A stretch of DNA of 64,000 nucleotides from Aurantiacibacter luteus (lineage in GTDB: Bacteria; Pseudomonadota; Alphaproteobacteria; Sphingomonadales; Sphingomonadaceae): assembly GCF_001010945.1 (NCBI RefSeq), contig NZ_LBHB01000001.1:186001-250000 (forward strand), written 5' to 3'. The translations under genes were made by a program, and so were the position numbers. Each line of letters starts with the position of its first letter. Positions within the stretch are counted from its first letter, which is position 1. The notes under the pieces were generated by a model that saw nothing but the letters and a program-made list of their open reading frames with translations, did no database searches and was not told where the DNA came from. Below, piece after piece: positions 5,179-58,003 of the stretch.

Positions 5179-6408
5179 ATGCTGCGGCGCGCTCTGACCA
5201 ATACCGGCTGGCTGATGGGCGCGCGCGGCGTGAATGCGGTGCTCAGCATCGTCTACCTCGCCATCGCGACGCGGCTGCTCGGGCCCGACGATTTCGGCCT
5301 ATTCGTGATCGCCTTCACCTTCGCCCAGATCGTGGCGGGTTTCTGCAGCTTCCAGACCTGGCAGGCGATCATCCGCTGGGGGCAGGACGAGGGGGGGCGG
5401 CGCACCGCGACCGGGTTCGCCGTGGCCCTCGACTTCGCCGCCATCGCCGCGGGCGTGGTCATCGCGGCGCTGGCGTTGGCGCTGTTTGCGAACACCTTGC
5501 TTCTGCCCGCCGAACTTCGCTGGCCGACCTTCGCCTTCACCGTCGCCTCTCTCTTGGCGATCCGCTCCACGCCCACCGGCCTGCTGCGCCTGCACGACCG
5601 CTACGACCGCGCCGCCTATGCCGACGCGACGACGAGTATGGTCAGGGCCGCAGGCGCAGTGCTGGTGATGTTTCTCGACCCGACGATCCTCAGTTTCCTG
5701 CTCGTCTGGGGGGTGGCCGAGATCGCCACTGCCGTCGTCTACTGGTGGCTCGCCGCTCGGACCGAGCCGATAGACCTCGCGCGCATCAGCCTGACCCGCC
5801 TGCCACGCGAGCATCCGGATGCCTGGGGGTTCGTCTGGGGCACCAGCCTCACCGCCTCGCTCGCGATCGCCAGCCGTCAGTTGCTGGTGCTGCTGGTCGG
5901 CGTGCTGGGCGGTGCGGCGCTGGCGGGCATCTACCGCGTCGCCTCGCAACTGGGCGAGGGGCTGCTGAAGCTGGCGCAGGCCTTGCTGCGCGCCGTCTAT
6001 CCGGAACTGGTACGCAATCCCGACACGGCCAGCGCGCTGGTCGGCAAGATCGTCCGCATCGCGGTGGTGACCGGCGTGGCGGTAGTAATGCTCGGCCTGG
6101 TGCTGGGCGAATGGATCATCATCGTGGTGGCGGGGCGAGAGTTCGTGGCGGCGACGGTGCCGATGATCGTACTGGCGGGCGCGGCCTCGATCGAGCTGGT
6201 TGGCGCGAGCCTCGAGGCCTTGCTGGTCGCGCGCGGGCGGGCCATCGCCAACTTCGTCACCCGCGCCATTCCCCTGACCATCGGCCTGCTGAGCCTGCCC
6301 TGGCTGCTCCAATGGTTCGGCGTGACCGGCGCGGCGCTGGTGATCCTGGGCACGAGCCTGGTGACTGTGACGGCCCTTGCCGTGCTCACCCGGCGGATGC
6401 GCGGTTAG
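5179..6408 (+). CDS. Oligosaccharide flippase family membrane protein (Wzx/MurJ-like)
   Basis: The 409-residue product is almost entirely hydrophobic, with about twelve to fourteen predicted membrane helices. It starts with the family-typical pattern NTGWLMGARGVNAVLSIVYLAIATRLLGPDDFG. Proteins of this polysaccharide-transporter group flip lipid-linked sugars across the inner membrane for O-antigen, capsule or exopolysaccharide. No glycosyltransferase genes lie beside it, so the glycan is unknown. The start was set at the ATG at 5179, just before the conserved N-terminus. An in-frame ATG at 5110 would add 23 residues lacking conserved character. Confidence 0.82.
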   Translation: MLRRALTNTGWLMGARGVNAVLSIVYLAIATRLLGPDDFGLFVIAFTFAQIVAGFCSFQTWQAIIRWGQDEGGRRTATGFAVALDFAAIAAGVVIAALALALFANTLLLPAELRWPTFAFTVASLLAIRSTPTGLLRLHDRYDRAAYADATTSMVRAAGAVLVMFLDPTILSFLLVWGVAEIATAVVYWWLAARTEPIDLARISLTRLPREHPDAWGFVWGTSLTASLAIASRQLLVLLVGVLGGAALAGIYRVASQLGEGLLKLAQALLRAVYPELVRNPDTASALVGKIVRIAVVTGVAVVMLGLVLGEWIIIVVAGREFVAATVPMIVLAGAASIELVGASLEALLVARGRAIANFVTRAIPLTIGLLSLPWLLQWFGVTGAALVILGTSLVTVTALAVLTRRMRG

Positions 6409-8610: not shown

Positions 8611-8889
8611 TCAGCCGACCTCGACTAGCGTGCGCTCGGAAAGCTCGCCCATCAGCGTCTGCAATTCTGCGCGGCAAACCGCTTCGTCCACGTCGTAGGC
8701 TTCGCGCATCGCCGCTACCAGGTCGCCGAACCGCGGATTGGCCTCGAGCATTTCCCATGCCGCGCGCCCGGTGTCCTTCAGGCTGTAGAACTGGCCGTTG
8801 ACGATGTGCAGCAGCACCACTTCGTCGTCCACGACAGTCTCCACGAAATTCTCGGTCTTGCTTATCCTGGTATCGTCGTCGATCTGCAC
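8611..8889 (-). CDS. PqqD-family RiPP recognition element (lasso B1-like)
   Basis: The 92-residue protein has the PqqD winged-helix pattern: a start of about ten residues, ENFVETVVDDEVVLLHIVNGQFYSLKDTGRAAWEML, then a helical half. PqqD-type domains bind the leader of a precursor peptide and hand it to modifying enzymes. In lasso systems this part is called B1 or the RRE. It is the last gene of a four-gene minus-strand run that follows the cyclase, kinase and sulfotransferase genes. The start is GTG at 8889, with AGGA nine bases upstream, and the gap from the sulfotransferase stop is 30 bases. The partner leader peptide is not encoded next to it. Confidence 0.85.
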   Translation of the reverse strand: MQIDDDTRISKTENFVETVVDDEVVLLHIVNGQFYSLKDTGRAAWEMLEANPRFGDLVAAMREAYDVDEAVCRAELQTLMGELSERTLVEVG

Positions 8890-8919: not shown

Positions 8920-9816
8920 TCAGGCCCGGTAGCCGAGTTCTTCCATCACATCGCCATTCACGTCGAGCAAGGCCTGGCGCTGCGCCGCGCTCAGGACATT
9001 CCACCCGTCTCCGGCACGCCCCGCGCGGAAGAAGCGACCGGTGGCTTCGGGTCGTTCGCGAAAGCCGTGCTCGTCCTCCTTGGCGCGCAGGCGCTCGAAA
9101 CTGCTCTCGGCCACCGCCTCGGCAATCAACGCGTCGTCCCCGGCCTCGGGGAGGTCAAGGAACTGCGCCATGCGTCGTAGCTCGCCGGCAGTGTCCGCCA
9201 GCATGTCCTCGTACCGGACGGTCAGCACGGGAATTTCGTCCTGGCGTTGCCAGCTGAGGTAGTGACCGCGCCAGCCGAGAGTCCTCTGCCGCAGCTGGGC
9301 CTTGCTGCCGCCGGCCATTATGTGCGCAGGGTCGTTAAGTTGCCGCACGATCCTGTCGTAATCGGTGTGCCCTTGGTGGTTGGCATAGGACACCGCGACG
9401 TCGAAAGGGTGGCGTACAAGGTAGATCGCTCCCGCGCTGCAATCGGCGGGAAACAGCGGCTCGCCGTTGCCACTATCGTGGTAACCATCGTGAACCTTCA
9501 CGAATATCCGGACGAGCGCATCGCGTGACTGTGCACGATAGAACCCCGGCCGCAGCAGGTCGATCTCGTCGTCGGTCAGGTCCGACGAGGGCAGGCCGGA
9601 CGCCTGGTCGAAGGCCGCGCGGTTGGAGGAAATCGAACCGGCAATGCTGACGAAGCGGTCGTTGTCGATCCCTTCGCGCGCGGTCAGGTTGGATAGCAGC
9701 ACGCGCGTCCACGTGTTGCCCGACTTGGGAAAGGAGGTGAGCCAGACGAGGTTTCGGTCGGGCCGCGAATGCGGCACGCCGATATCGCCCCGGTCAGGCC
9801 CGGTCACGGCGCGCAC
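8920..9816 (-). CDS. PAPS-dependent sulfotransferase in RiPP cluster
   Basis: The 298-residue cytosolic-type sulfotransferase carries the PAPS 5'-phosphosulfate loop FPKSGNTW at 29-36 and the 3'-phosphate-binding block RHPFDVAVS at 135-143, both intact. It should transfer sulfate from PAPS to a hydroxyl or amine. The gene overlaps the upstream kinase gene by 23 bases and precedes the PqqD gene, so a role in decorating the cluster's peptide is likely but unproven. The start was taken as GTG at 9816. A GTG at 9777 would avoid the overlap and keep all motifs. Another sulfotransferase-like gene, of a different subtype, lies at 37476-38690. Confidence 0.85.
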   Translation of the reverse strand: MRAVTGPDRGDIGVPHSRPDRNLVWLTSFPKSGNTWTRVLLSNLTAREGIDNDRFVSIAGSISSNRAAFDQASGLPSSDLTDDEIDLLRPGFYRAQSRDALVRIFVKVHDGYHDSGNGEPLFPADCSAGAIYLVRHPFDVAVSYANHQGHTDYDRIVRQLNDPAHIMAGGSKAQLRQRTLGWRGHYLSWQRQDEIPVLTVRYEDMLADTAGELRRMAQFLDLPEAGDDALIAEAVAESSFERLRAKEDEHGFRERPEATGRFFRAGRAGDGWNVLSAAQRQALLDVNGDVMEELGYRA

Positions 9817-10726
9817 CGTCGTCGCGGATCCAGTCGGCCATGAAGGCGGTGCTGCGCTCGAATTCGCGCTTCTTCAACGGCCGATCGAAGGTCCTCACCT
9901 CGACGGCCGCAATCAGTCGGGCCAGCGCGGCAAACAGCGCGGGACGACCCATGATGGCGTTGCCGAAACGGATGCGGTAGACGCTCTCGCGCAGCTTCTT
10001 GAGCGCCTCGGCCCCCGTCACCTGCTCGATCGCCACCGGCTCGCGGTCGCGGCGCGCGTTCTCGTTCTTCAGGATGAACAGGCTGGCGAGGTGCCCGCAG
10101 CCGACCGTCTCGGTCTTGCCGGGGAGGGCGAAGAACTTCTCGAACCCAGGCTCGTCGCGCACCGCGCCCATCTTCTGCGAACCGGTCAGCTCGAGCGCGT
10201 CCGCCCACAGCTTCATGTCCTTCTGCCCGGCATAGCACGGCGCGCTCTCCTGCGAGAGCTCGGCGGGATCGATGATCAGCACGTCGTCGGTGAAGAAATC
10301 CAGCCCACGGTCGGAAAGCGCGGCGGCGAGCGTGGACTTGCCCGCTCCGGACTGGCCGGTGAAGGCGTGGACCCGGCCCTCGTGATAGACCGCGCTGGCG
10401 TGCAGCGGCAACAGGCCGCGCTGGTAGCACAGGGCGCCCCATGCCGATCCCAGCAGGAACAGCGCCACGTCACGGTCGGAGGCGCCGTGGCGGCTATAGG
10501 TTATGCGGCTGCCGTCCTCGACAAGGAAGCTCGCGCCGCCCGGCACGTGCAGCAGGAAGCGACCACCGTCGACCTCGTAGGCGACGCCCCCGTCGCTCGT
10601 ATTCCCGAGGCTGTCGGGCACCGCGCCCTCAGCCACGACCACATCTGCGCCCTCGCCGCGCAGGTAGGGGGCGACGCGGGTGCCGAGATCGAGATCGGCC
10701 GTGACGGTAAAGGGCGTGTCTTTCAC
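9794..10726 (-). CDS. HPr-kinase-like serine kinase, RiPP tailoring type
   Basis: The 310-residue protein has the C-terminal catalytic fold of HPr kinase/phosphorylase. It shows LPLHASAV (about 107-114), the P-loop GQSGAGKS at 124-131 and the acidic pair in FFTDDVL near 147. It lacks a normal HPrK N-terminal domain and is not next to a phosphotransferase operon. Proteins of this class in lasso-peptide clusters, such as the paeninodin kinase, phosphorylate the C-terminal serine of the precursor. The GTG start overlaps the cyclase stop by four bases (GTGA), and the end overlaps the sulfotransferase gene. A peptide-kinase role is therefore inferred from family and context. Confidence 0.82.
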   Translation of the reverse strand: MKDTPFTVTADLDLGTRVAPYLRGEGADVVVAEGAVPDSLGNTSDGGVAYEVDGGRFLLHVPGGASFLVEDGSRITYSRHGASDRDVALFLLGSAWGALCYQRGLLPLHASAVYHEGRVHAFTGQSGAGKSTLAAALSDRGLDFFTDDVLIIDPAELSQESAPCYAGQKDMKLWADALELTGSQKMGAVRDEPGFEKFFALPGKTETVGCGHLASLFILKNENARRDREPVAIEQVTGAEALKKLRESVYRIRFGNAIMGRPALFAALARLIAAVEVRTFDRPLKKREFERSTAFMADWIRDDGARRDRA

Positions 10727-12693
10727 TGGTTCTTTCCATTCGCCCAGTTGATGTATCGCGACATCCCGATCACGCGGCCCAGGCCGACCATCGCGATGAG
10801 GTAATCCGGGTGATCGTTCGCCGTCAGCGGCGTGCGTTCGGGCCAGGTGTCGAACAGGCGGCGCAGGCGCGGGATGTCGAAGCGATGGGCCATCTCGGGA
10901 TCCTCGGCAGCGCGCTCGATCTCATCGCGGTAGCGATCGATATCCTTGGTGAAGCGCGCGTGCCAGTCCGCGGATTGGCGGCCGCGCACCTTGAGATCGA
11001 CGATCTCGGGCGGCAGGCGGTCCTTCATCAGGCGCCGCGCCAGCCAGCGATCGGTGCCCTCGTTGAGGTACTGCTCGTCGGGAATGGCGGCACAGAACTC
11101 CGTGATGCGGCGACATCCCAGCGGATCCCGATGGTCGACCTTGTTCATGCTTTGCCCGGCGAGCATGGCCAGCGCGTTCTGCTCGCGATTGCCGTTGAAG
11201 GTCATCTGGCGGCGCAGTTCCTGCGGGCTGGCGATGGTGGTGTAACTGTCGTCCCAGTCCATCTCGCGCGCGCGCTCGGCGACCTGCATGTCGCTGGCAT
11301 ATGCCGGGTTGATCGCCGAGAAACCCGTGTAACCCGCGTGCGACAGGTCGCCGCGCAGCCGGGCGATCGCCTTGTTCACGCCGGCAGGCATCAGCGGGCT
11401 GAAGACCGCACGGTAATACCGTTTCAGCATCCCCTGCTGCCAGTCGAGCTGGCGCAGGCCCCGGTGCATCTCGCCCCAGCGCAGCTCCTTGAACAGCTTG
11501 GGGAAGACGTTGCGAGCCGTGAACGAGATCGTGCGGTTGCCGCTGGCCCCGCCGAGCAGGACGCTGCGCCCCGCCTCTCGGGTGCGCCGGGCGATTTCCT
11601 GCCCCCAGTGGAGGTTGTTCCAACCGAACGGCGGCATCTCCGAATAGCGGATCATGTCGTCGAGCCCGTGGTCGATCGGCAGCCCCTCGCCATCCACGAA
11701 GGTGACGTCGAACTGCGGATACATCCGGGCCAGCGCGCGGACCGGGCCCGATTCGTCGCCGAGGCGGCCCGCGCCGTAGGTCCGGCCGTCCCAGTCCTTG
11801 CCGGGCACATGGGTGAAGCCCAGCAGCGGCGCGGTAAAGCCGTGTACGCCGCGCCCCAGCGCCTCGAGCGCATAGACCGATACGGTCGAGCTATCGAGCC
11901 CGGCGCTGACCGTGGTGGCCGGCGTGACCCTGGCCCGCATGCCCGCTTCCACGGCATCGCGCATGAGCGCATCGAGCGCTTCGACGTACTCATCGTCGCG
12001 GGCGAAGCGGACGGGTTTGAGATCGTCGAACGAATAGTAGCTCTCGGTGCGCAGGCCCTCTCGGGTCACCTCGAGCCAGTGCCCGGCCCGCAGGTGTCGC
12101 ACGCCCTTGAAGAAGGTGCGCGCGCTATCTTCGTAGTTGAGGATCATCACATCTGCCACGCGCTGCTCGTCGACCTCGCGCGGGATGGCGGGAAGGGCGA
12201 ACAGTCCGCGCGGGGCCGAGGCGATGGCGAACAGCTGCGCGCTCTCGTGATAGACCAGCGGCGGCCCCTGCAACGCGGCCTTGGCGGCGAACAGCTCCTG
12301 CCTGGCAGCATCGAGCACCACGAAGGCCCAGTTCCCCTCGAGGCGCAGCAGGCCGTCGCGGCCCCATCGTTGCCACGCGGCATGGGCCATGGCGCTGTCG
12401 GGCATGGCGCGCGCCTCTTCGCTTGCCAGACCCAGGGCGCGGGCAAGATCGGCGCGGTAATCCAGCCTGCCAGTGAAGAGGAACGCGGTCTCGCCGGCGA
12501 CGATGGGCTGCTCGTCAAAGGAATCTTCCGGCGTGAACTCTGTGCCCTTGGTCCAGCACCCAGCGAGTGCGCCGAGCCGGCGATATCGCTGCTCCAACGG
12601 GCCATGCAGGGCCAGGCCGCCCGCCATGCGCGCGATATCCTCTTCGCCCACCGGCGCGCCGTTTCGCTGGAAGATTGCGCCGATGGCGGACAT
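10723..12693 (-). CDS. Asparagine-synthase-like protein (lasso cyclase-type)
   Basis: The 656-residue product has a class II amidotransferase-like N-terminal domain and an ATP-pyrophosphatase domain whose PP-loop is SAGLDSS at 263-269. True asparagine synthetases start MCGI with a catalytic Cys2. This protein starts MSAIGAIFQR and so lacks the glutaminase nucleophile, as do lasso-peptide cyclases, which activate an Asp or Glu side chain by adenylation to form a macrolactam. Gene context (kinase, sulfotransferase, PqqD, B2 protease, exporter) supports a peptide role. Start choice: ATG at 12693 precedes the first conserved residues. In-frame starts at 12705 and 12825 add non-conserved residues and would remove the divergent promoter space. 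Confidence 0.83.
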   Translation of the reverse strand: MSAIGAIFQRNGAPVGEEDIARMAGGLALHGPLEQRYRRLGALAGCWTKGTEFTPEDSFDEQPIVAGETAFLFTGRLDYRADLARALGLASEEARAMPDSAMAHAAWQRWGRDGLLRLEGNWAFVVLDAARQELFAAKAALQGPPLVYHESAQLFAIASAPRGLFALPAIPREVDEQRVADVMILNYEDSARTFFKGVRHLRAGHWLEVTREGLRTESYYSFDDLKPVRFARDDEYVEALDALMRDAVEAGMRARVTPATTVSAGLDSSTVSVYALEALGRGVHGFTAPLLGFTHVPGKDWDGRTYGAGRLGDESGPVRALARMYPQFDVTFVDGEGLPIDHGLDDMIRYSEMPPFGWNNLHWGQEIARRTREAGRSVLLGGASGNRTISFTARNVFPKLFKELRWGEMHRGLRQLDWQQGMLKRYYRAVFSPLMPAGVNKAIARLRGDLSHAGYTGFSAINPAYASDMQVAERAREMDWDDSYTTIASPQELRRQMTFNGNREQNALAMLAGQSMNKVDHRDPLGCRRITEFCAAIPDEQYLNEGTDRWLARRLMKDRLPPEIVDLKVRGRQSADWHARFTKDIDRYRDEIERAAEDPEMAHRFDIPRLRRLFDTWPERTPLTANDHPDYLIAMVGLGRVIGMSRYINWANGKNQ

Positions 12694-12833
12694 GGCCGCG
12701 CGCATACCCAGACCGGCGCCACCAAGACAAGGGGCATGTCGGCAACTGCGCCTGCTTTCCGCGCCTTGATGCGTGCAGATGAAGAGCGCAATGTTGCCGT
12801 CCGCGCCATTGGCCGTATAGGCCATCGGCTGAC
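12694..12833. promoter_or_regulatory. Divergent intergenic region between RiPP operons
   Basis: These 140 bases separate the minus-strand cyclase operon from the plus-strand protease/exporter operon and must hold both promoters. This is where a lasso precursor gene is usually found, so all six frames were read. None gives a leader with a Y/W-x-x-P-x-L pattern followed by a plausible core. A 33-codon plus-strand frame (12736-12837) that ends in ATGA overlap with the protease start is possible but has no recognisable features. No clear -35/-10 pair could be named. Confidence 0.4.
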
Positions 12834-13331
12834 ATGAGCCCCTATCGAGCCTTTCGCAGAAGCCTGTTCAAACTGGAACTGTGGCTGTCGCTCGCCTTCG
12901 CGCGGTTCCTGATCCGCTTCGTTGCCTTTCGCCGGTGGAAGGCGCTGCTGGGGCCCATCGACGGCGAGCGCAGGCCTGCCGACTGGCCTGAGGTCAGCGC
13001 CGAGCAGATTAAGCAGGCGCAATACATCGGCCGCGATGTCAACCGCGTAGCCGATCGCCTGCGCCTGTTCGAGGCCGTGTGCCTGCCGCGCGCGATGGCG
13101 GGGCGCTGGGCGCTGGCGCGGCGCGGCATCGATTCGCGCATCATCATTGGCTCGCGCCGCGGCGAGCCCGAGGAAGGGCTGCTGTTCCACGCCTGGCTGA
13201 TGGTGGGCGAGGCGGTGATCACCGGCGGTGCGGAGCGCGCCGAGTTCCTCGCCTTCCGCCGCCGCGCCGGCGCTGCCGGCGCTGCCGGCGCTGCCGGCGC
13301 TGCCGACGACGCCCGCGCCCATGCCGGCTGA
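12834..13331 (+). CDS. Lasso peptide biosynthesis B2-type cysteine protease
   Basis: The 165-residue protein fits the transglutaminase-like B2 family that removes leader peptides in lasso biosynthesis. The catalytic cysteine is in FEAVCLPRAM (Cys83) and the histidine in FHAWL (His119), with the usual arginine-rich IGSRRG segment between. It overlaps the downstream ABC gene by 11 bases. Its last 20 or so residues are a low-complexity Ala-Gly tail, created by a 9-base tandem repeat, that relatives would not be expected to share. It should act with the PqqD protein encoded divergently. Together they make the split B1/B2 arrangement common in proteobacteria. Confidence 0.85.
   Translation: MSPYRAFRRSLFKLELWLSLAFARFLIRFVAFRRWKALLGPIDGERRPADWPEVSAEQIKQAQYIGRDVNRVADRLRLFEAVCLPRAMAGRWALARRGIDSRIIIGSRRGEPEEGLLFHAWLMVGEAVITGGAERAEFLAFRRRAGAAGAAGAAGAADDARAHAG
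13266..13301 (+). repeat. Four tandem copies of a 9-base unit
   Basis: The unit GCCGGCGCT is repeated four times without mismatch, with partial copies on both sides. It lies in the last codons of the B2 protease gene and gives an Ala-Ala-Gly repeat. It ends 19 bases before the exporter start at 13321. Since the unit is a multiple of three, copy-number change would keep the frame. Confidence 0.85.
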
Positions 13332-15090
13332 GCCCGCGACAGACCGGGACCGGGGCAGCTTTCGCGACCTGCTGGTGGCTATCTGGAACTATGCCGGCGA
13401 CGGGGTGATCGGGACGCTGACCATCGTCGCGCTCGCCGCCGTGCTCGAAAGCGTGGGGCTGGTGCTGCTGATTCCCGTGGCGGAGACGATTTTCGCCGGC
13501 GATACGGGGGCGCCATCGGGCGTGACCGCATGGCTTTCGGCAAGGATGGAGGGTCTGGGCCTCACCAGCGTGATCGAGCAGCTGGCCGGGATGGGCGTGG
13601 TCTTCACGGTGTTGGTCGCCCTTCGCGCCGTGGTGCTGCTGCGCCGCGACATCCTGCTGATGGAGCTTTCGCAGGGTTTCGTCGACCGCATCCGGCTCGA
13701 TTTCTTCGCCTTGCTGGCCCATGCGGACTGGCCGGTGATCAAGCGCTATCGCAAGGCGGAGCTGCTCAACACCATGACGACCAATGTCGCGCGGCTGGGG
13801 CAAGTCATGCGGTTCCTCACAAGCGGCGTCGTCATGCTGGTGCTGGCGATTGCGTATCTCGCCTCGGCCTTCGTGGTCAGCGTGGAGCTGGGTCTGGCAC
13901 TGATCGTGCTGACGGCGGCCGGCGGACTGGTGGCGGCCGTCTGGGCGCGGCGCAGCCACGGCCTGGGGCGCACGCTCAACCTCGCCAATCGCGGCGTAAT
14001 GCACGAGACGACGACTTTTCTCGACGGCATGAAGGCCGCCAAGGCTGCCCGCGCGGAGGACGAGCTGAGCCGCCGCTTCGCTGCCTCCATCGTCGAAACG
14101 CGTCGCATCTCGGTCGATTTCGTCATGCAGCAGGGGCGACTGCGCAACGCCATCCAGTTCATTGCCTCGGTCGCCGCGCTCGCGGTGCTGCTGCTGGGTT
14201 ACGGGGCCATCGGGCTGGACGGGGGCGAGCTGGTGCTGATGGCGGCCATCGTGCTGCGCCTGGCGCCGAACCTCGTTTCCACGCTCACCGGCATCCAGTC
14301 GCTCGCCCACGCGCTGCCCGCCTTCGAGGCGATCCGGGCGACCGAGGACGAATTGCGTCGCGCGCAAACGGCGGCAACGGTGGGGGAAGACACGACGGCC
14401 AACACGTTCGCCGCGCCGACAGAACCGCTGAGGGCCGAGAACGTGCGCGTCGACGTGGCGAACGAGGCGGGCGAGACGGTAACGTTGGTCCGCGCGGAGG
14501 CGCTGTCGTTCGCTCCGGGCACACTGGTTCACGTGGGCGGGCCGTCCGGTGCGGGCAAGTCCACCCTCGTCGAGCTGCTCGCAGGCCTCCACCTGCCCGC
14601 CGCGGGCACGGTCTCTCGCGGCAATCTGGCGCTCAATGCCGCCACTCGCGCCGCCTGGCAGTCGCGCGTCAGCTTCGCCCCGCAGGAGCCCTTCCTGTTC
14701 GATGCCACGGTGCGCGAGAACCTGCTCTGGCCCAATCTCTCGGCGGACGACGCACGGATGTGGCAGGTGCTGGAGCAGGCCGCGGCGGACGATATCGTGC
14801 GGCGGCTACCCGCCGGCCTCGACGAGCCCCTGCTCGATGGCGGAGCGCGCCTGTCCGGCGGCGAGCGCCAGCGCCTGTGCCTGGCGCGGGCATTGCTGCG
14901 CCCGGCCGATCTCGTCATCCTCGACGAGGCGACCTCGGCGATGGACGCGGAACTGGAGCGCCGCATCGTCGGGCGGCTGAAAGAGGAGATCGGGTCGCGC
15001 GTGGTGCTGCTGGTCTCGCACTCTCTGAATGCCGTCGCCCACGCGGATCAGCGCATAACGGTGAGCGAGGGCGTGGCGCAGATCGCCTGA
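13321..15090 (+). CDS. ABC exporter (membrane domain fused to ATPase), RiPP cluster
   Basis: The 589-residue half-transporter has about six membrane helices in the first 300 residues. An ATPase domain follows with Walker A GGPSGAGKST at 406-415, signature LSGGE at 511-515 and Walker B ILDEATSAMD with its aspartate near 535. It resembles the exporters (often called D) that pump mature lasso peptides out of the cell. There is no N-terminal C39 peptidase domain, in line with a separate B2 protease. The ATG at 13321 was preferred because the upstream frame extension is repeat-derived. It overlaps the B2 gene by 11 bases. Confidence 0.88.
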   Translation: MPAEPATDRDRGSFRDLLVAIWNYAGDGVIGTLTIVALAAVLESVGLVLLIPVAETIFAGDTGAPSGVTAWLSARMEGLGLTSVIEQLAGMGVVFTVLVALRAVVLLRRDILLMELSQGFVDRIRLDFFALLAHADWPVIKRYRKAELLNTMTTNVARLGQVMRFLTSGVVMLVLAIAYLASAFVVSVELGLALIVLTAAGGLVAAVWARRSHGLGRTLNLANRGVMHETTTFLDGMKAAKAARAEDELSRRFAASIVETRRISVDFVMQQGRLRNAIQFIASVAALAVLLLGYGAIGLDGGELVLMAAIVLRLAPNLVSTLTGIQSLAHALPAFEAIRATEDELRRAQTAATVGEDTTANTFAAPTEPLRAENVRVDVANEAGETVTLVRAEALSFAPGTLVHVGGPSGAGKSTLVELLAGLHLPAAGTVSRGNLALNAATRAAWQSRVSFAPQEPFLFDATVRENLLWPNLSADDARMWQVLEQAAADDIVRRLPAGLDEPLLDGGARLSGGERQRLCLARALLRPADLVILDEATSAMDAELERRIVGRLKEEIGSRVVLLVSHSLNAVAHADQRITVSEGVAQIA

Positions 15091-15132: not shown

Positions 15133-15762
15133 TTGGAAGGCGTGAAAGCAGGGATACAGTCAGACACCAGCGCGCAGGTGATGGACCTGATCGCGAGCAA
15201 TCCGGTCGCCTCCGTCGTGAGCGATCCGCGCAAACCCGACAATCCGATCATCGCGGTCAACCAGGCCTTCCTCGACCTGACGGGTTATTCCGAAGAGGAA
15301 GTCGTGGGGCGCAACTGCCGCTTCCTCGCCGGGCCCGGCACCGAGCCCTGGCTGAGCGAGCGGATGCGCCAATGCATTCGCGCCCGCAAGGCGGTGCTGG
15401 TCGAGATCCTGAACTACAAGAAGGACGGCACGCCCTTCCGCAACGCCGTGCTCGTGGCGCCGATCTTCGACGAGGATGGGGAGGTCATGTATTTCCACGG
15501 CTCGCAGGTCGAACTCGACGAGAGCAGCGACAGCCCCGAAATCACGCGCCGCGAGCGGGCCAGCGTGGCCGTGCAGAGCCTTTCGCCCCGCCAGCGCGAG
15601 GTGCTTAAGCTGGTGGCAGGAGGGCTGCGAAACAAGCAGATCGCCTACGAGCTTGGCCTGTCGGAAAAGACCGTGAAGATGCACCGGGGGCTGGCGATGG
15701 AAAAGCTTGGCACGCAGAGCAGCGCCGACATGATCCGCATCGCCGTCGAGGCCGGGCTCTAG
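15133..15762 (+). CDS. LOV-HTH blue-light transcription regulator, EL222-like
   Basis: The 209-residue protein is laid out like EL222 of Erythrobacter litoralis: an N-terminal LOV photosensor (about 20-135) and a C-terminal LuxR-type helix-turn-helix (about 145-205). The flavin-adduct cysteine is Cys62 in [15 protein letters not shown], which keeps the unusual alanine after FL seen in EL222. The HTH shows [35 protein letters not shown]. In the known protein, blue light frees the HTH to dimerise and bind DNA. The gene follows the RiPP exporter by 42 bases on the same strand. Start uncertain: TTG at 15133 or GTG at 15142, neither with a good ribosome binding site. Confidence 0.9.
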
Positions 15763-53791: not shown

Positions 53792-54037
53792 TTATTCCTT
53801 TGGGGCCTCGGTCGTCTCGATGCGGTAGTTCTCGATCACGGTGTTGGCGAGCAGCTTCTCGCACATCTGCGCGATGTCGTCCTCGCTGGTGCCGTCGGCC
53901 ACGTCGAGCTCGATCAGGCGTCCCACACGCACGTCCTCGACGCCCGTGAAGCCGAGCCCCTCGAGCGCGTGGTGCACGGCGCGGCCCTGCGGGTCGAGCA
54001 CGCCGGGCTTCAGGGAAACGTGGATGCGGACTTTCAT
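53792..54037 (-). CDS. purS: Phosphoribosylformylglycinamidine synthase subunit PurS
   Basis: PurS is the small structural subunit that bridges PurQ and the short-type PurL. The 81-residue protein reads [40 protein letters not shown], the standard PurS pattern. It is coupled to purQ with a four-base gap. Upstream lies the M16 peptidase gene rather than purC, to which purS is commonly adjacent. Confidence 0.95.
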
Positions 54038-54110: not shown

Positions 54111-57011
54111 CTAGCCCCCGGTTGCCGCGTCTTCGTCGGGCGTCGGCAAAACGACGAATTCCAGCCGCTCGGCCGGGTCGAGATACCGCAGGGCCAGCGC
54201 GTGGAGGTCTTCGGGCGTGATGGCCCGCACCACGTCGGCCGCCGTCTGGTATCGCTCGATCCGGTCGGGCTCGGTCTGCGCGCGGTCGACCAGCGTCATC
54301 CACCCGGCATTGCTGTCGAGCAGGTTGCCGAGGCCCTCCAGCAGCGGCTGGCGGGCGCGCACCAGCACGTCCTCGTCGAGCGGACCGGCGCGCAGCAGGG
54401 TGATGGCGCGCAGCATGGCCTCGCGCGTCGGCTCGACCTGGCTGACATCGACCTCGGCGGAGATGTCGAAGGTGCCGTAGCCGGGGTAGACCTGCGACAG
54501 GTCGGACCCGGCGCCGGGCGAATAGGCCTGGCCCAGTTCCTCGCGCACGATGTCGGTCAATTCCAGCCGCATGACCCGCTGCAACATGGAGAAGCGCAGC
54601 GATTCGACCGGGTCGCTGTCGTCGCGGGTGGGCCACATCATCTGCACCAGCGCCTGGTTGGGCGCGCCGCCGTGGTAGATCGTGCGCGCCTGCCGCTCGG
54701 CGGTGAAGGTGCGATCGATATTGTCGGCGTAGTCGCGGAACGTGGTCTCACGCTGCGGCAGTGTGCCGAGCGTGCGGGCGACCAGCGCCACGGCCGCGTC
54801 GGCATCGATGTCGCCCACCAGCGCCAGCTCCATCGCGCCGTTCTGCCAGCGATCCATCACGTCCTCGCGCAGCTTGGCGAAGGAAAGCGCAAGGTAGGCG
54901 TCCTCCGGCTGCAGCGTGAAGCGCGGGTCGTTGTCCGACACGATGCCGCCCAGTTCCGACCCCAGCGCGCCACCGGGCGTCGCGCGATACTGGCGGAAGA
55001 AGCTGGTGATGTTGCGGCGGTATTGCGCTTCGGCCGTGGGGCGGAAGGCGGCATCCTGGATGGCCGCTGTCATCAGCTGCAGCTGCAGTTCGAGGTCGCG
55101 CGGCGTCGTGCCGGCATTCCAGCGGAAGGTGTCGTCGGAAGTGCCGACGTTGAAGGCGACCTGCCGCCCGGCGAGGACCGATTGCAGTTCGTCGAAGGTG
55201 TGTTGGCCGAGCCCGCCGCTGGGCAGCGAGCTGAACATGGCGACGGCGAGCGGATTGTCGCGGGTGGCGAGAAGCTGGCCGCCGTCGATGTTCAGCTGCA
55301 CCAGCACGCGGTCGTCCTGCAGCGTGGTGGGCTTCAGGTTCAGCATGAGGCCATTGGCGAAGCGCACCTCGCGGATGCCCAGGTCCTCGCGCACGGTATC
55401 GCTCACAACCTGCCCGGGCGTGCCGAAGTCGGTGTAGGCGAAGGGCGGAGCCTCGACGTTGGTGTTGGCCGCCAGTTCGGCCGCCATGCCGGCGTTCCAC
55501 GCGGTGCGCAGCGCTTCTGCGCCGCCATCAGGCGCGGCAGGTCCGGAGTAGCGGATCAGCGGGTCTTCGAGCGGAATGGCCTCGCGCTGGACGGCGGCGA
55601 GCACGGCTTCCGGCGTGATGGCGGAGGCCAGCGCGTTGAACCGCTCAAGCGTGCTGGCGGGCGTGGTGGGCACGCGCCCATCGCGCAGCAGCGTCACCGC
55701 GCCGCCGACGAAGGTGGCGTTGTTGCGGGTCGCCGCACCAGCGGCATTGGTCTCGACCGCGTTACGGATGGTGGCGACCTGCTCGGCCACCTCGCTCTGG
55801 GTGAAGCCGTAGGCGAGCGCGCGCCGGTACTCCGACTGCGCGGCGGCGAGCCCGCGCTGCCATTCGCCGTCGGCGGCAAGCACGGTCAGCGTGGTCGAGC
55901 GGCCTTCGCGAAAAAAGTCGTTGGTGCCGAAACTTGCACCGCGGAACGGCGGGTCCTCCTCGCGCGACAGGCTCTGCAATCGGCGGTTGACGATGCCGTA
56001 GCCGACCTGCCGCAGCAGCTGGTCGAAACGGCTGGCGTCGGTATCGGGCGGGGTGATGTAGTTACCATTGCGGGCGACAGTGATCTGCTCGGGCAAAGCC
56101 GGATCGGTGTAAATGCGCGTCTCGCCGGCATAGGCCGGATCGACGGGGCCGAACACGGCGGCGGGCGCGGAGGGCGTCGCGCGCCAGTCGCCGAACTTCT
56201 CGCGCACGGCGGCCTCGACCGCGTCGGCATCGAAGTCGCCGACGACGATGATCGCCGTGTTGTCGGGCCGGTAATAGCGGTTGTAGAGGTCGCGCAACTT
56301 GTCGCCGGTAGCAGCCTGCAGGTCCTCGATCTGGCCGATGGGCATCCGCTGGGAGATCCGGCTGCCGGGAAAGCCGAAGCCGAGGCTGTCGACGACGTTA
56401 CGCAGCTGGAAGGTGTCGCGCACCCGCTGCTCGGACAGGACGACGCCCTTCTCGCGATCCACCGCCTCGTTGTCGAAGGTGAGATTGCTCGCCGTCTCGC
56501 GCATGATCATCAGCGCGGTATCGAGCAGGTCCATGTCGTTGCGCGGCAGGTCTAGGCGGTAGAGCGTGGTGTCGAAGCTGGTCGAGGCATTGGTGTCGGC
56601 ACCGAAGGCCAGGCCCTCGCGCTCGAGCAGGCTGATCATCTCGCCTTCGGGGATATTCTCGCTACCGTTGAAGGCCATGTGTTCGATGAAGTGGGCATAG
56701 CCCTCCTCGTCGTCGCTTTCGGAGACCGAGCCGAAGTCGACCCAGAAATAGACCGAACCCTGCTCCGGCGGCGTGGCGTTGGAACGGATGATGTAGCGCA
56801 TGCCGTTGTCGAGCCGACCGACGCGGTAGTCGGTATCGAAGGGCAGGTCGCTGGCCGCGATCTCGGGGAAGATCGCGCCGATCTCCGCGGGCACGCCGAC
56901 GGTGCCTTGCGATTGCGCGACGACAGAGTCCTGCGCGAGGACGGCGACGGGCTGGAGAGTGAGCGGAAGGGCGAGAGCGGTGGTCAGCACCGCGAGCGTG
57001 CGAATTTTCAT
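54111..57011 (-). CDS. Secreted M16 (insulinase-type) zinc metallopeptidase
   Basis: The 966-residue protein has a signal peptide (about 1-27, ending AVLAQ) and two M16 halves. The first half bears the zinc site HFIEH (107-111, in YAHFIEHMAFNGS) and is active. The second half lacks it, as usual in full-length family members. Conserved blocks such as FTDTLYRLDLPR-like and VVGDFDADAV are present. It probably degrades or trims peptides in the periplasm. The gene lies between purC and purS, directly downstream of the 42-residue peptide gene, so it is a candidate leader- or tag-trimming enzyme for that peptide. M16 pairs (PqqF-like) do this in other RiPP systems. Confidence 0.88.
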   Translation of the reverse strand: MKIRTLAVLTTALALPLTLQPVAVLAQDSVVAQSQGTVGVPAEIGAIFPEIAASDLPFDTDYRVGRLDNGMRYIIRSNATPPEQGSVYFWVDFGSVSESDDEEGYAHFIEHMAFNGSENIPEGEMISLLEREGLAFGADTNASTSFDTTLYRLDLPRNDMDLLDTALMIMRETASNLTFDNEAVDREKGVVLSEQRVRDTFQLRNVVDSLGFGFPGSRISQRMPIGQIEDLQAATGDKLRDLYNRYYRPDNTAIIVVGDFDADAVEAAVREKFGDWRATPSAPAAVFGPVDPAYAGETRIYTDPALPEQITVARNGNYITPPDTDASRFDQLLRQVGYGIVNRRLQSLSREEDPPFRGASFGTNDFFREGRSTTLTVLAADGEWQRGLAAAQSEYRRALAYGFTQSEVAEQVATIRNAVETNAAGAATRNNATFVGGAVTLLRDGRVPTTPASTLERFNALASAITPEAVLAAVQREAIPLEDPLIRYSGPAAPDGGAEALRTAWNAGMAAELAANTNVEAPPFAYTDFGTPGQVVSDTVREDLGIREVRFANGLMLNLKPTTLQDDRVLVQLNIDGGQLLATRDNPLAVAMFSSLPSGGLGQHTFDELQSVLAGRQVAFNVGTSDDTFRWNAGTTPRDLELQLQLMTAAIQDAAFRPTAEAQYRRNITSFFRQYRATPGGALGSELGGIVSDNDPRFTLQPEDAYLALSFAKLREDVMDRWQNGAMELALVGDIDADAAVALVARTLGTLPQRETTFRDYADNIDRTFTAERQARTIYHGGAPNQALVQMMWPTRDDSDPVESLRFSMLQRVMRLELTDIVREELGQAYSPGAGSDLSQVYPGYGTFDISAEVDVSQVEPTREAMLRAITLLRAGPLDEDVLVRARQPLLEGLGNLLDSNAGWMTLVDRAQTEPDRIERYQTAADVVRAITPEDLHALALRYLDPAERLEFVVLPTPDEDAATGG

Positions 57012-57056
57012 GCCCGGCACCCTAAGGCGCTGAGATGAAACTGCAATGACTGGTTG

Positions 57057-57185
57057 TCAGCTCGACTGGCTGATAGAACTCGTACCCCCATCGGCACCCG
57101 GTCCGAGAAAAGCAGCGATGTCCGTCGATTTGGCATCCAGTTCGACAAGCTCGGGGCGGGTCCAGGTCTTGGGATCAGTTTCCAT
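57057..57185 (-). CDS. Candidate RiPP precursor peptide, 42 residues
   Basis: The frame encodes 42 residues starting at ATG 57185, with a good ribosome binding site (TAGGAG) ten bases upstream. It lies 11 bases after the purC stop. The N-terminal half, METDPKTWTRPELVELD, has the W-x-x-P-x-L leader pattern (W8, P11, L13) that PqqD-type recognition domains bind. The tail runs IAAFLGPGADGG then TSSISQSS, ending in serine. No standard lasso core with an acidic residue at position 7-9 after a glycine can be marked. The PELVE codons resemble one arm of the repeat at 25597 and 29327, so a repeat-derived origin must be considered. Mass spectrometry would settle expression. Confidence 0.6.
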   Translation of the reverse strand: METDPKTWTRPELVELDAKSTDIAAFLGPGADGGTSSISQSS

Positions 57186-57196
57186 CGTCAGTGCTC

Positions 57197-58003
57197 CTAT
57201 TTCTTGGGCTTGGGGGCCGGCGTGCGCAGGCGCGAGCGGTGGGCATCCATGTCCAGCACTTCGCCCGGGGAATTGTCCTCCCCGTTCAGCAGGCCCATGC
57301 GGCGGGCCACTTCCTGGTAGGCCTCCTCCTCGCCGCCCATGTCGCGGCGGAAGCGGTCCTTGTCGAGTTTCTCGTTGGTGGTGAAGTCCCACAGGCGGCA
57401 GTTGTCGGGGCTGATCTCGTCGGCGAGGATCACCCGGCTGTAGTCGCCGTCGTAGATGCGCCCGAACTCCAGCTTGAAGTCGATCAGGCGGATGCCGATG
57501 GCGGCGAACATGCCGCACATGAAATCGTTCACGCGGATCGCCATGGCGGCGATGTCCTGCATCTCGTCGTGGCCGGCCCAGTTGAAGGCGGCGATGTGCT
57601 CTTCCGCCACCATCGGATCGCCGAGCGCGTCGTCCTTGAGGTAATACTCGATGATGGTGTGCGGCAGCATCTCGCCTTCCTCGATGCCGAGGCGCTTGGC
57701 GATGGAACCGGCGGCGACGTTGCGCACGACCACCTCCAGCGGGATGATCTCCACCTGCCGCACCAGCTGCTCGCGCATGTTCAGGCGGCGAATGAAGTGC
57801 GTGGGAATGCCGATGTGCGCCAGCCGCGTGAAGACGTGCTCGCTGATGCGATTGTTGATCACGCCCTTGCCGTTGATCGTGCCCTTCTTCTGGGCGTTGA
57901 AGGCGGTGGCATCGTCCTTGAAGTACTGGATGATCGTGCCCGGCTCCGGACCTTCGTAGAGGATCTTGGCCTTGCCTTCGTAGATCTGGCGGCGACGGGA
58001 CAT
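57197..58003 (-). CDS. purC: Phosphoribosylaminoimidazolesuccinocarboxamide synthase PurC
   Basis: PurC (SAICAR synthetase) joins aspartate to CAIR in purine synthesis. The 268-residue protein contains [36 protein letters not shown] and [23 protein letters not shown], and the ending PEVL-like block expected of the bacterial form. The ATG at 58003 is preceded by AAAGG. It heads the minus-strand run purC, peptide, M16 peptidase, purS, purQ. Confidence 0.95.

Follow-up and report, generated by a model that had tools for sequence, protein, structure and literature searches.

The 42-codon reading frame behind purC in the genome of Aurantiacibacter luteus encodes, with high probability, a lasso peptide precursor, being one of at least nine precursors that are scattered over this genome and share one single enzyme block. 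From its sequence, the product is predicted to consist of the core AFLGPGADGGTSSISQSS, closed by an Ala1–Asp8 lactam, phosphorylated and perhaps sulfated. The window referred to in the following is the whole analyzed stretch of 64,000 nucleotides; further genomes, contigs and stretches are denoted by G, C and L numbers, respectively, with G000 being the genome of the window.

The peptide gene in the purC operon

On the minus strand, the genes are arranged in the order purC, 42-codon frame, M16 peptidase and purS-like gene (Table 1), the first of which we take to be purC (SAICAR synthase) and the last presumably purS. The ATG of the peptide lies at 57185 and its stop codon at 57057–57059, with 11 bases between purC and the ATG. 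The preliminary description proved exact for this locus: the ATG with TAGGAG and the M16 gene, its ATG 45 bases downstream of the peptide stop codon, were reproduced on the minus strand, and W8, P11, L13, the Gly-rich middle and the terminal Ser are all as stated. The reading frame of the peptide stays open over 354 codons.

Scanning the whole window for [YWF]xxPx[LIVM] followed by a short tail returned the peptide as the sole candidate of convincing form. No match to the peptide was found among NCBIfam (E ≤ 1) and Pfam (E ≤ 0.01) models, and the paeninodin family model NF033524 did not match it either. In a search of 10,585 frames, a profile built without this genome (37 sequences) recovered the peptide with E = 2.5e-10, and the frame of the window ranking next scored 7.1; with a profile built without the whole genus (26 sequences), the two values were 1.1e-9 and 8.2. 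The earlier assignment as a RiPP-precursor-like peptide is thus upheld, more precisely as a lasso precursor. A chance frame or a decaying, untranslated orphan would fit the facts that the peptide is known at this place from one genome only and that the GC content of its codon positions is nearly flat (0.56/0.58/0.60). This explanation is, however, hardly credible in view of the genus-free profile match, the good ribosome-binding site and the retention of W(-17), P(-14), L(-12), I(-2), Asp8 and the final Ser.

Among 20 related genomes, an M16 match follows purC in 14 (within about 260 bases in 13 of them and 1.1 kb on in the other), and a precursor-like frame was found within 700 bases after purC in none. 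In this genome, the peptide is therefore an insertion, next to an M16 gene that is an old neighbour of purC. The preliminary description had proposed an inserted module of peptide and peptidase and had named a lack of conservation of the frame in genomes keeping purC and M16 as evidence against it. Taken literally, the latter is what was found, the peptide being absent there rather than decayed; the insertion behind purC holds, and the partnership with M16 is not supported. Location on the same strand at a distance of 45 bases would suit a two-gene module, but the counts from the relatives speak against it, and all-against-all BLAST showed no M16 relative among the listed neighbours of the other precursors, leaving this reading a very small residual probability.

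Table 1. Coordinates of the features discussed. Positions refer to the window unless a contig (C) or stretch (L) is named.
Feature	Position	Strand	Basis or remark
B1, PqqD-like RiPP recognition element	8611..8889	-	PF05402 57 bits, cut-off 23.4
Sulfotransferase	8920..9816	-	PF00685 65.8 bits, cut-off 22; PKSGNTW and RHPFDVAVSYANH stretches
HprK-like kinase	9794..10726	-	TIGR04355 38.5 bits, PF07475 16.8 bits, both below cut-offs
C, putative lasso cyclase (asparagine-synthase type)	10723..12825, likely start 12693	-	NF033535 216.7 bits, cut-off 525
B2, leader peptidase, transglutaminase-like	12834..13331	+	NF033537 56.3 bits, cut-off 33
ABC exporter	13228..15090	+	PF00005, PF00664
PAS (LOV-like) + LuxR-type HTH regulator	15133..15762	+	42 bases after exporter
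purS-like gene	53792-54037	-	after M16 gene in strand order
M16 peptidase	54111..57020, probable ATG 57011	-	PF00675, PF05193; common purC neighbour, outside lasso system
Probable lasso precursor peptide, 42 aa	57057..57185	-	product METDPKTWTRPELVELDAKSTDIAAFLGPGADGGTSSISQSS
Predicted core AFLGPGADGGTSSISQSS	57060..57113	-	predicted ring Ala1–Asp8; C-terminal Ser
Predicted leader METDPKTWTRPELVELDAKSTDIA	57114..57185	-	Trp(-17), Pro(-14), Leu(-12), Ile(-2); Trp-anchored comparison of 46 precursors
TAGGAG, Shine-Dalgarno-like	57194..57199	-	overlaps purC stop codon
purC (presumed SAICAR synthase)	57197..58003	-	host operon, outside lasso system
Precursors on C1	243,057 (window's), 425,836, 516,658, 869,437		lower ends of open frames
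Precursors on C11	141,383 and 263,514		lower ends of open frames
Precursors on C17	6,033 and 173,821		lower ends of open frames
Precursor on C18	179,736		lower end of open frame
Tail Collar proteins	L052 4784-5431; L141 3792-5031; L142 3515-4754; L143 11760-13061; L145 7380-8704		PF07484 match for a single protein each in L052 and L141; assigned by similarity in G338 and G169, by eye otherwise
1100-aa protein	L141 9580-12885; L142 9309-12614; L145 3525-6839; L147 4407-7703; L232		in L141: FG-GAP, ASPIC/UnbV, permease-like part

The enzyme block at 8.6–15.1 kb

The proteins encoded at 8.6–15.1 kb constitute a lasso-peptide block. The solved chain nearest to B1 by sequence is TbiB1 (5v1u, E = 5.6e-9), and a genome-wide search at E ≤ 0.001 gave B1 as the sole PqqD match. 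The peptide had been put forward as the missing substrate of this block; given this single PqqD match, it is very probably a substrate, but with eight more precursors in the genome it is not the sole one. For the cyclase C, NF033535 was the best NCBIfam match, yet below its cut-off, and PF00733 scored above cut-off. A second lasso block was not confirmed, since the other strong NF033535 match in the genome is an XrtA/PEP-CTERM amidotransferase (961.5 bits, cut-off 816.9); a further weak cyclase-like match is a frame of 200 aa (E = 6.1e-5). Neither the leader-pattern scan nor the profile detected a precursor of the respective type within the block.

The solved chains nearest to the sulfotransferase are StaL and Teg12, and its two stretches listed in Table 1 presumably bind PAPS. 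Sulfotransferase homologues in related blocks are 45–73% identical, with PKSGNTW and RxPxDVxxSxxxH being invariant in 8 of 8 aligned sequences. Likewise, His109, Lys130, Asp147 and Asp148 of the kinase and Cys83 and His119 of B2 are invariant in all eight sequences aligned. The four kinase residues are taken to be the His-Lys-Asp-Asp set of those lasso HprK-like kinases that, in the available part of the source, phosphorylate the conserved C-terminal Ser, as the paeninodin kinase does with the last Ser of its precursor (PMC9266682). Binding of WxxPxL by B1 is known from solved B1–leader complexes (PMC13381572, as far as accessible; 5v1u/5v1v by sequence). The pocket of B1 showed no clean agreement with the published Trp-type positions: aligned to 9x90_B, taken as PbaB1 from its numbering, it features Lys/Ser/Thr at PbaB1 G42 and Glu/Asp/His at Q79, the paeninodin-type Trp-selective state being Gly at G42 and no Asp at Q79.

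By means of tblastn, B1, sulfotransferase, kinase, C, B2 and exporter were all found in eight relatives, namely G338 (Aurantiacibacter marinus KCTC 23554), G213, G087, G151, G023, Erythrobacter sp. UBA3075, Aurantiacibacter sediminis and Sphingomonas canadensis. A 4-kb contig of G330 carries B1, sulfotransferase, kinase and C. In the stretches examined by the same approach, B2 and exporter were not found in G169 and G359, B1 not in one of the two G359 stretches, and the sulfotransferase not in G228 and G363.

Besides the window, four relatives (stretches L139, L140, L196 and L197) have the PAS/LuxR regulator next to the exporter; it was not found in the G087, G151 and G023 stretches, which do include the exporter. 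Blue-light control of the block via this LOV-like HTH protein is possible in this clade. Furthermore, an NTP_transf_5 nucleotidyltransferase is encoded between C and B2 in G338 (L139 10627-11739) and beside C in G023 (L144 478-1578); the gap between C and B2 in the window is too small for such a gene.

Dispersed precursors and their co-occurrence with the cyclase

A search of the genome with the window peptide returned four more peptides of the same build, and the profile of these five peptides yielded the nine precursors listed in Table 1. The cyclase is located at C1:196,726-198,825, the nearest precursor being that of the window, 44 kb off; none of the nine resides inside the enzyme cluster or within 40 kb of the cyclase. 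A location beside the enzymes is usual for lasso systems and not mechanistically required.

In total, 46 precursors were compiled as frames at E < 0.05 from the window and 38 stretches of 11 genomes, these being taken from 16 cyclase-bearing genomes (the other five, G316, G285, G178, G116 and G321, had no hit better than E = 0.1). Start codons were set by rule, positions were numbered from the Trp, and frames with WxxP, WxxL or WxxA were kept, none being dropped. Nine precursors each originate from G000 and G169, eight from G023, seven, all of them unlinked, from G338, five from G330, two each from G213 and G359, and one each from G087, G151, G228 and G363; two further weak hits in G169 are outside the 46. 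Of the 46, 11 are located within 10 kb of a cyclase, the remaining 35 including the five of G330, which cannot be placed relative to the cyclase because the latter sits on a 4-kb contig.

The block also occurs in A. sediminis and UBA3075, where the stretch around it contains no precursor; if precursors are dispersed, both should therefore carry unlinked ones. UBA3075 was found to encode six unlinked precursors on five contigs, all with WxxP and all ending in Ser, and A. sediminis yielded one clear match on another contig (E = 7e-8) and one doubtful match (E = 0.048, frame interrupted). S. canadensis has a linked precursor (E = 1.1e-6) and a weak match (0.018), and in two genomes whose cyclases are more distant (L209, L205), the profile search returned no precursor. 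Since nine precursors are present here, none of them linked, and unlinked ones also occur in UBA3075 and A. sediminis, one block probably serves dispersed, variable precursors.

With respect to their surroundings, G000 and G338 have one precursor neighbourhood in common, in which a Tail-Collar protein gene precedes the precursor and a virB3-like gene follows it. A gene that we take to be aldehyde-dehydrogenase-like (90% identical) adjoins one precursor each in G023 and G169, and a presumably typA-like gene (79%) one precursor each in G338 and G330. The GC content of the nine precursor genes ranges from 0.48 to 0.62 versus 0.677 for the window. Recent transposition with long shared flanks was discarded, BLAST of the nine loci with flanks of 600 bases showing none: the best pair covers 94 bases (E = 1.2e-14), beginning about ten bases upstream of the gene starts, and another, weak match of 122 bases (58%) begins about 60 bases upstream of them. 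An EM search for upstream motifs, from which the window peptide was omitted due to its position within the purC operon, gave a weak TTGACAGG-like signal exceeding all eight shuffled controls at widths 12 and 26, not at 18, with 25 random starts for the controls versus 40 for the real set.

Several further observations concern the precursor loci. Two unlinked G000 precursors share an upstream promoter-like TTGACAGG...TACGAA (L053 about 6094-6125; L054 about 5912-5943). Secreted-looking Phage Tail Collar proteins adjoin precursors or sit inside blocks in several genera (Table 1). A protein of 1100 aa is encoded by the next gene after the linked precursors in G087, G151, G169 and G359; it was dismissed as a required partner, as no match (E ≤ 1e-20) was obtained in G000, G338 and G213, nor in A. 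sediminis, UBA3075, S. canadensis and G228.

To relate precursors to cyclases, 397 genomes of the family were searched, of which 71 have a cyclase at E ≤ 1e-30. The profile of 46 rows matched at E < 1e-7 in 12 genomes, all of them among the 71, and in none of the 326 genomes without cyclase; only the negative side of this comparison is free of bias, because 11 of the 12 strong genomes (all but G290) had contributed profile rows and the row-source genomes had been chosen for their cyclase. In these counts, relatives represent non-independent samples. The preliminary description would have been weakened by a lack of co-occurrence between peptide and cyclase block; this was tested with the profile searches reported in this section, and their outcome does not speak against it.

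For the positive side, the comparison relies on profiles with fewer rows, applied earlier and with less prior selection. With 119 genomes of the family, the five-row G000 profile reached E < 1e-4 outside its own genome in G087 (4.2e-7) and G023 (5.5e-6) alone; apart from G000, these two are the sole members of that set whose cyclase shows 40% identity or more. G065, which has a distant lasso-type cyclase, followed at 0.0056. A 13-row profile (G000, G023, G087) was run on the 16 cyclase-bearing genomes. Among genomes not used for it that have a cyclase of at least 40% identity, it matched in G338 (4.9e-10), G213 (1.2e-6), G151 (1.6e-12), G330 (5.6e-8), G169 (1.8e-8) and G359 (0.002); the seven genomes with more distant cyclases gave 3.5e-9 (G228), 0.003 (G363) and values above 0.1 (five genomes). 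The sample included 12 genomes of the genus itself. Eight of these lack a close cyclase and showed no match at E ≤ 0.02, with the exception of G285 (0.0017), where the match adjoins that genome's own distant cyclase.

At E ≤ 0.02, the 46-row profile matched in 47 of the 397 genomes, 35 of which have weak matches besides the 12 strong ones. In 20 of the 35, a match lies within about 1.5 kb of a cyclase (for example in G342, G361, G321, G227, G255, G060, G333 and G274), which favours a true lasso leader. Six others (G013, G083, G094, G123, G245 and G263) have only frames of at least 248 codons, probably matched by chance. The remaining nine show short frames not beside a detected cyclase; four of these genomes have a cyclase elsewhere (G037, G205, G259, G388) and five have none at E ≤ 1e-30 (G152, G238, G249, G337, G358). 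Precursor-like short frames of one genus without cyclase at this threshold are located at G249 C8:2936-4781 (a run of five), G358 C19:163369-163864 and G337 C1:689244-689351, raising the question of whether another peptide family uses the same leader.

Regarding conserved residues, Trp(-17) is present in all 46 precursors, Pro(-14) in 45 and Leu/Val/Ile(-12) in 44. With the Trp as anchor, position -2 is Ile/Val in 35 precursors, Thr in none and neither Ile/Val nor Ala in nine; the window peptide has Ile at this position and thus deviates from the Thr(-2) of lasso leaders. An Asp/Glu occurs at core positions 7–9 in 45 of the 46, 32 of these at position 8 (Asp8 in the window peptide), compared to 12.2 on average and 25 at most for 2000 sets of shuffled cores, and the last residue is Ser in all 46. 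The Trp, ring-Asp and final-Ser counts are partly selected, because these residues were common to all 13 seed sequences; the six UBA3075 precursors, recovered later, nevertheless show WxxP and the final Ser as well. Core position 1 varies (Asn, Ser, Ala, Phe, Leu and others), a Phe/Trp/Tyr plug is present in only 35% of the tails, Ser/Thr account for 43% of tail residues, and Tyr occurs in only nine of the 46 cores. The paeninodin model NF033524 weakly matched one of the 46 precursors (E = 0.0014).

Leader and core differ in their variability. For five paralogue pairs within arrays, 12–15 of the 17 leader positions (-17 to -1) are identical, and the core identities of the same pairs are 1/14, 8/17, 10/17, 3/16 and 3/13. 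The linked orthologues of G087 and G151 share 15 of 17 leader and 13 of 14 core positions, with 15 synonymous and eight non-synonymous codon differences (raw counts). For the array pairs, the corresponding raw values are 2/13, 4/13, 6/19, 5/22 and 12/23, with 5/20 for the third G023 pairing. Absence of constraint gives about three non-synonymous changes per synonymous one, so that relaxed constraint fits equally well as diversifying selection.

Proposed maturation, known systems and implications

As the second gene of the purC operon, the peptide should be made whenever purC is. In the pathway that we infer, B1 would grip the WxxPxL leader, and the HprK-like kinase would add a phosphate to the C-terminal Ser before the precursor is cut, as for paeninodin. 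The sulfotransferase may add sulfate to Ser/Thr, the target being a guess. B2 would cut after residue 24, one residue past Ile(-2), C would link the Ala1 amine to the Asp8 side chain, forming a ring round the tail, and the ABC protein would export the finished product. For the core, the calculated [M+H]+ values are 1620.750 as lactam, 1700.716 with added phosphate, 1700.707 with added sulfate and 1780.673 with both groups. As bulky tail residues are rare, it can be speculated that phosphate or sulfate might act as a lock.

Alternatively, the peptides could be substrates of B1, kinase and sulfotransferase that are released as linear phospho-, sulfo- or otherwise modified products, with the cyclase acting elsewhere. 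The variable core residue 1, the plug-poor tails and the failure to find B2 in the G169 and G359 stretches examined would agree with this, as would a published RiPP family featuring an RRE, an HprK-like kinase and an NTP-transferase, mostly without lasso enzymes according to the accessible part of the source (PMC13381572). We consider linear products improbable, however, because the ring acid is found at core positions 7–9 in 45/46 precursors, all six proteins from B1 to the exporter occur together in eight relatives, and peptides of the same family directly adjoin C in G087 and G151. The lasso precursor assignment is therefore preferred.

Comparisons with known systems refer to the available parts of the cited papers. 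Paeninodin, pseudomycoidin and SyanA of Sphingobium yanoikuyae are similar in the HprK-like kinase with His-Lys-Asp-Asp and the C-terminal Ser (PMC9266682), and paeninodin-like systems also have a separate B1 and, in their Bacillota members, a Trp leader (PMC13381572). Differences are that the block described here yielded no precursor and nine are unlinked, that the sulfotransferase is conserved, that position -2 is Ile/Val instead of Thr, and that NF033524 misses the window peptide. Leaders with Ile/Val(-2) were noted in Sphingomonadales by Duan and colleagues (2023, PMC10368454). The Bradymonadales system bsf shares Ile(-2), a ring predicted on Asp8, an HprK-like kinase and split B1/B2, whereas bsfA lies inside its cluster, its kinase BsfK acts on Ser3 and not on the last residue, and the C-terminus is Asp (PMC10368454). 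Several precursors can occur within one lasso cluster (PMC13381572). A putative sulfotransferase gene was described for some Firmicutes lasso clusters (Zhu 2016, cited in PMC8498205); it is located at the cluster start there, but between kinase and B1 here in Sphingomonadales. Prochlorosins resemble our case in that a single promiscuous enzyme set (ProcM-type) processes many precursors (PMC10783134); the lanthipeptide chemistry and the other leader family make this an analogy only.

Accordingly, the predicted chemistry falls within a known type (paeninodin-like, Ile/Val(-2) lasso), and the novelty lies in the dispersed organization: the literature searched contained no description of lasso precursors located apart from their enzymes, which is no proof since subscription journals were thinly covered. 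Likewise, the available parts of the literature searched reported no sulfated lasso peptide; the kinase together with the conserved sulfotransferase predicts one.

A more far-reaching interpretation, which we offer as a tentative and rather unlikely one, is that the dispersed lassos act as a state-coded signal. The precursor genes, each about 130 bases long, would be placed within or next to unrelated genes (purC in this case, and elsewhere typA-like, aldehyde-dehydrogenase-like or Tail-Collar genes) and each therefore expressed under its neighbour's conditions, one block making distinct phosphorylated, sulfated lassos with fast-changing cores, possibly under blue-light regulation in this clade.

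Lasso mining usually looks for a precursor adjacent to the enzymes. Blocks of the sort described here would be labelled precursor-less and their products overlooked. If the lasso precursor assignment and the shared block are true, a single promiscuous lasso block copes in nature with at least nine widely differing cores, which would provide natural substrate-tolerance data together with a ready library, and the prochlorosin-like plan of one enzyme set for many substrates would extend to the lasso class.
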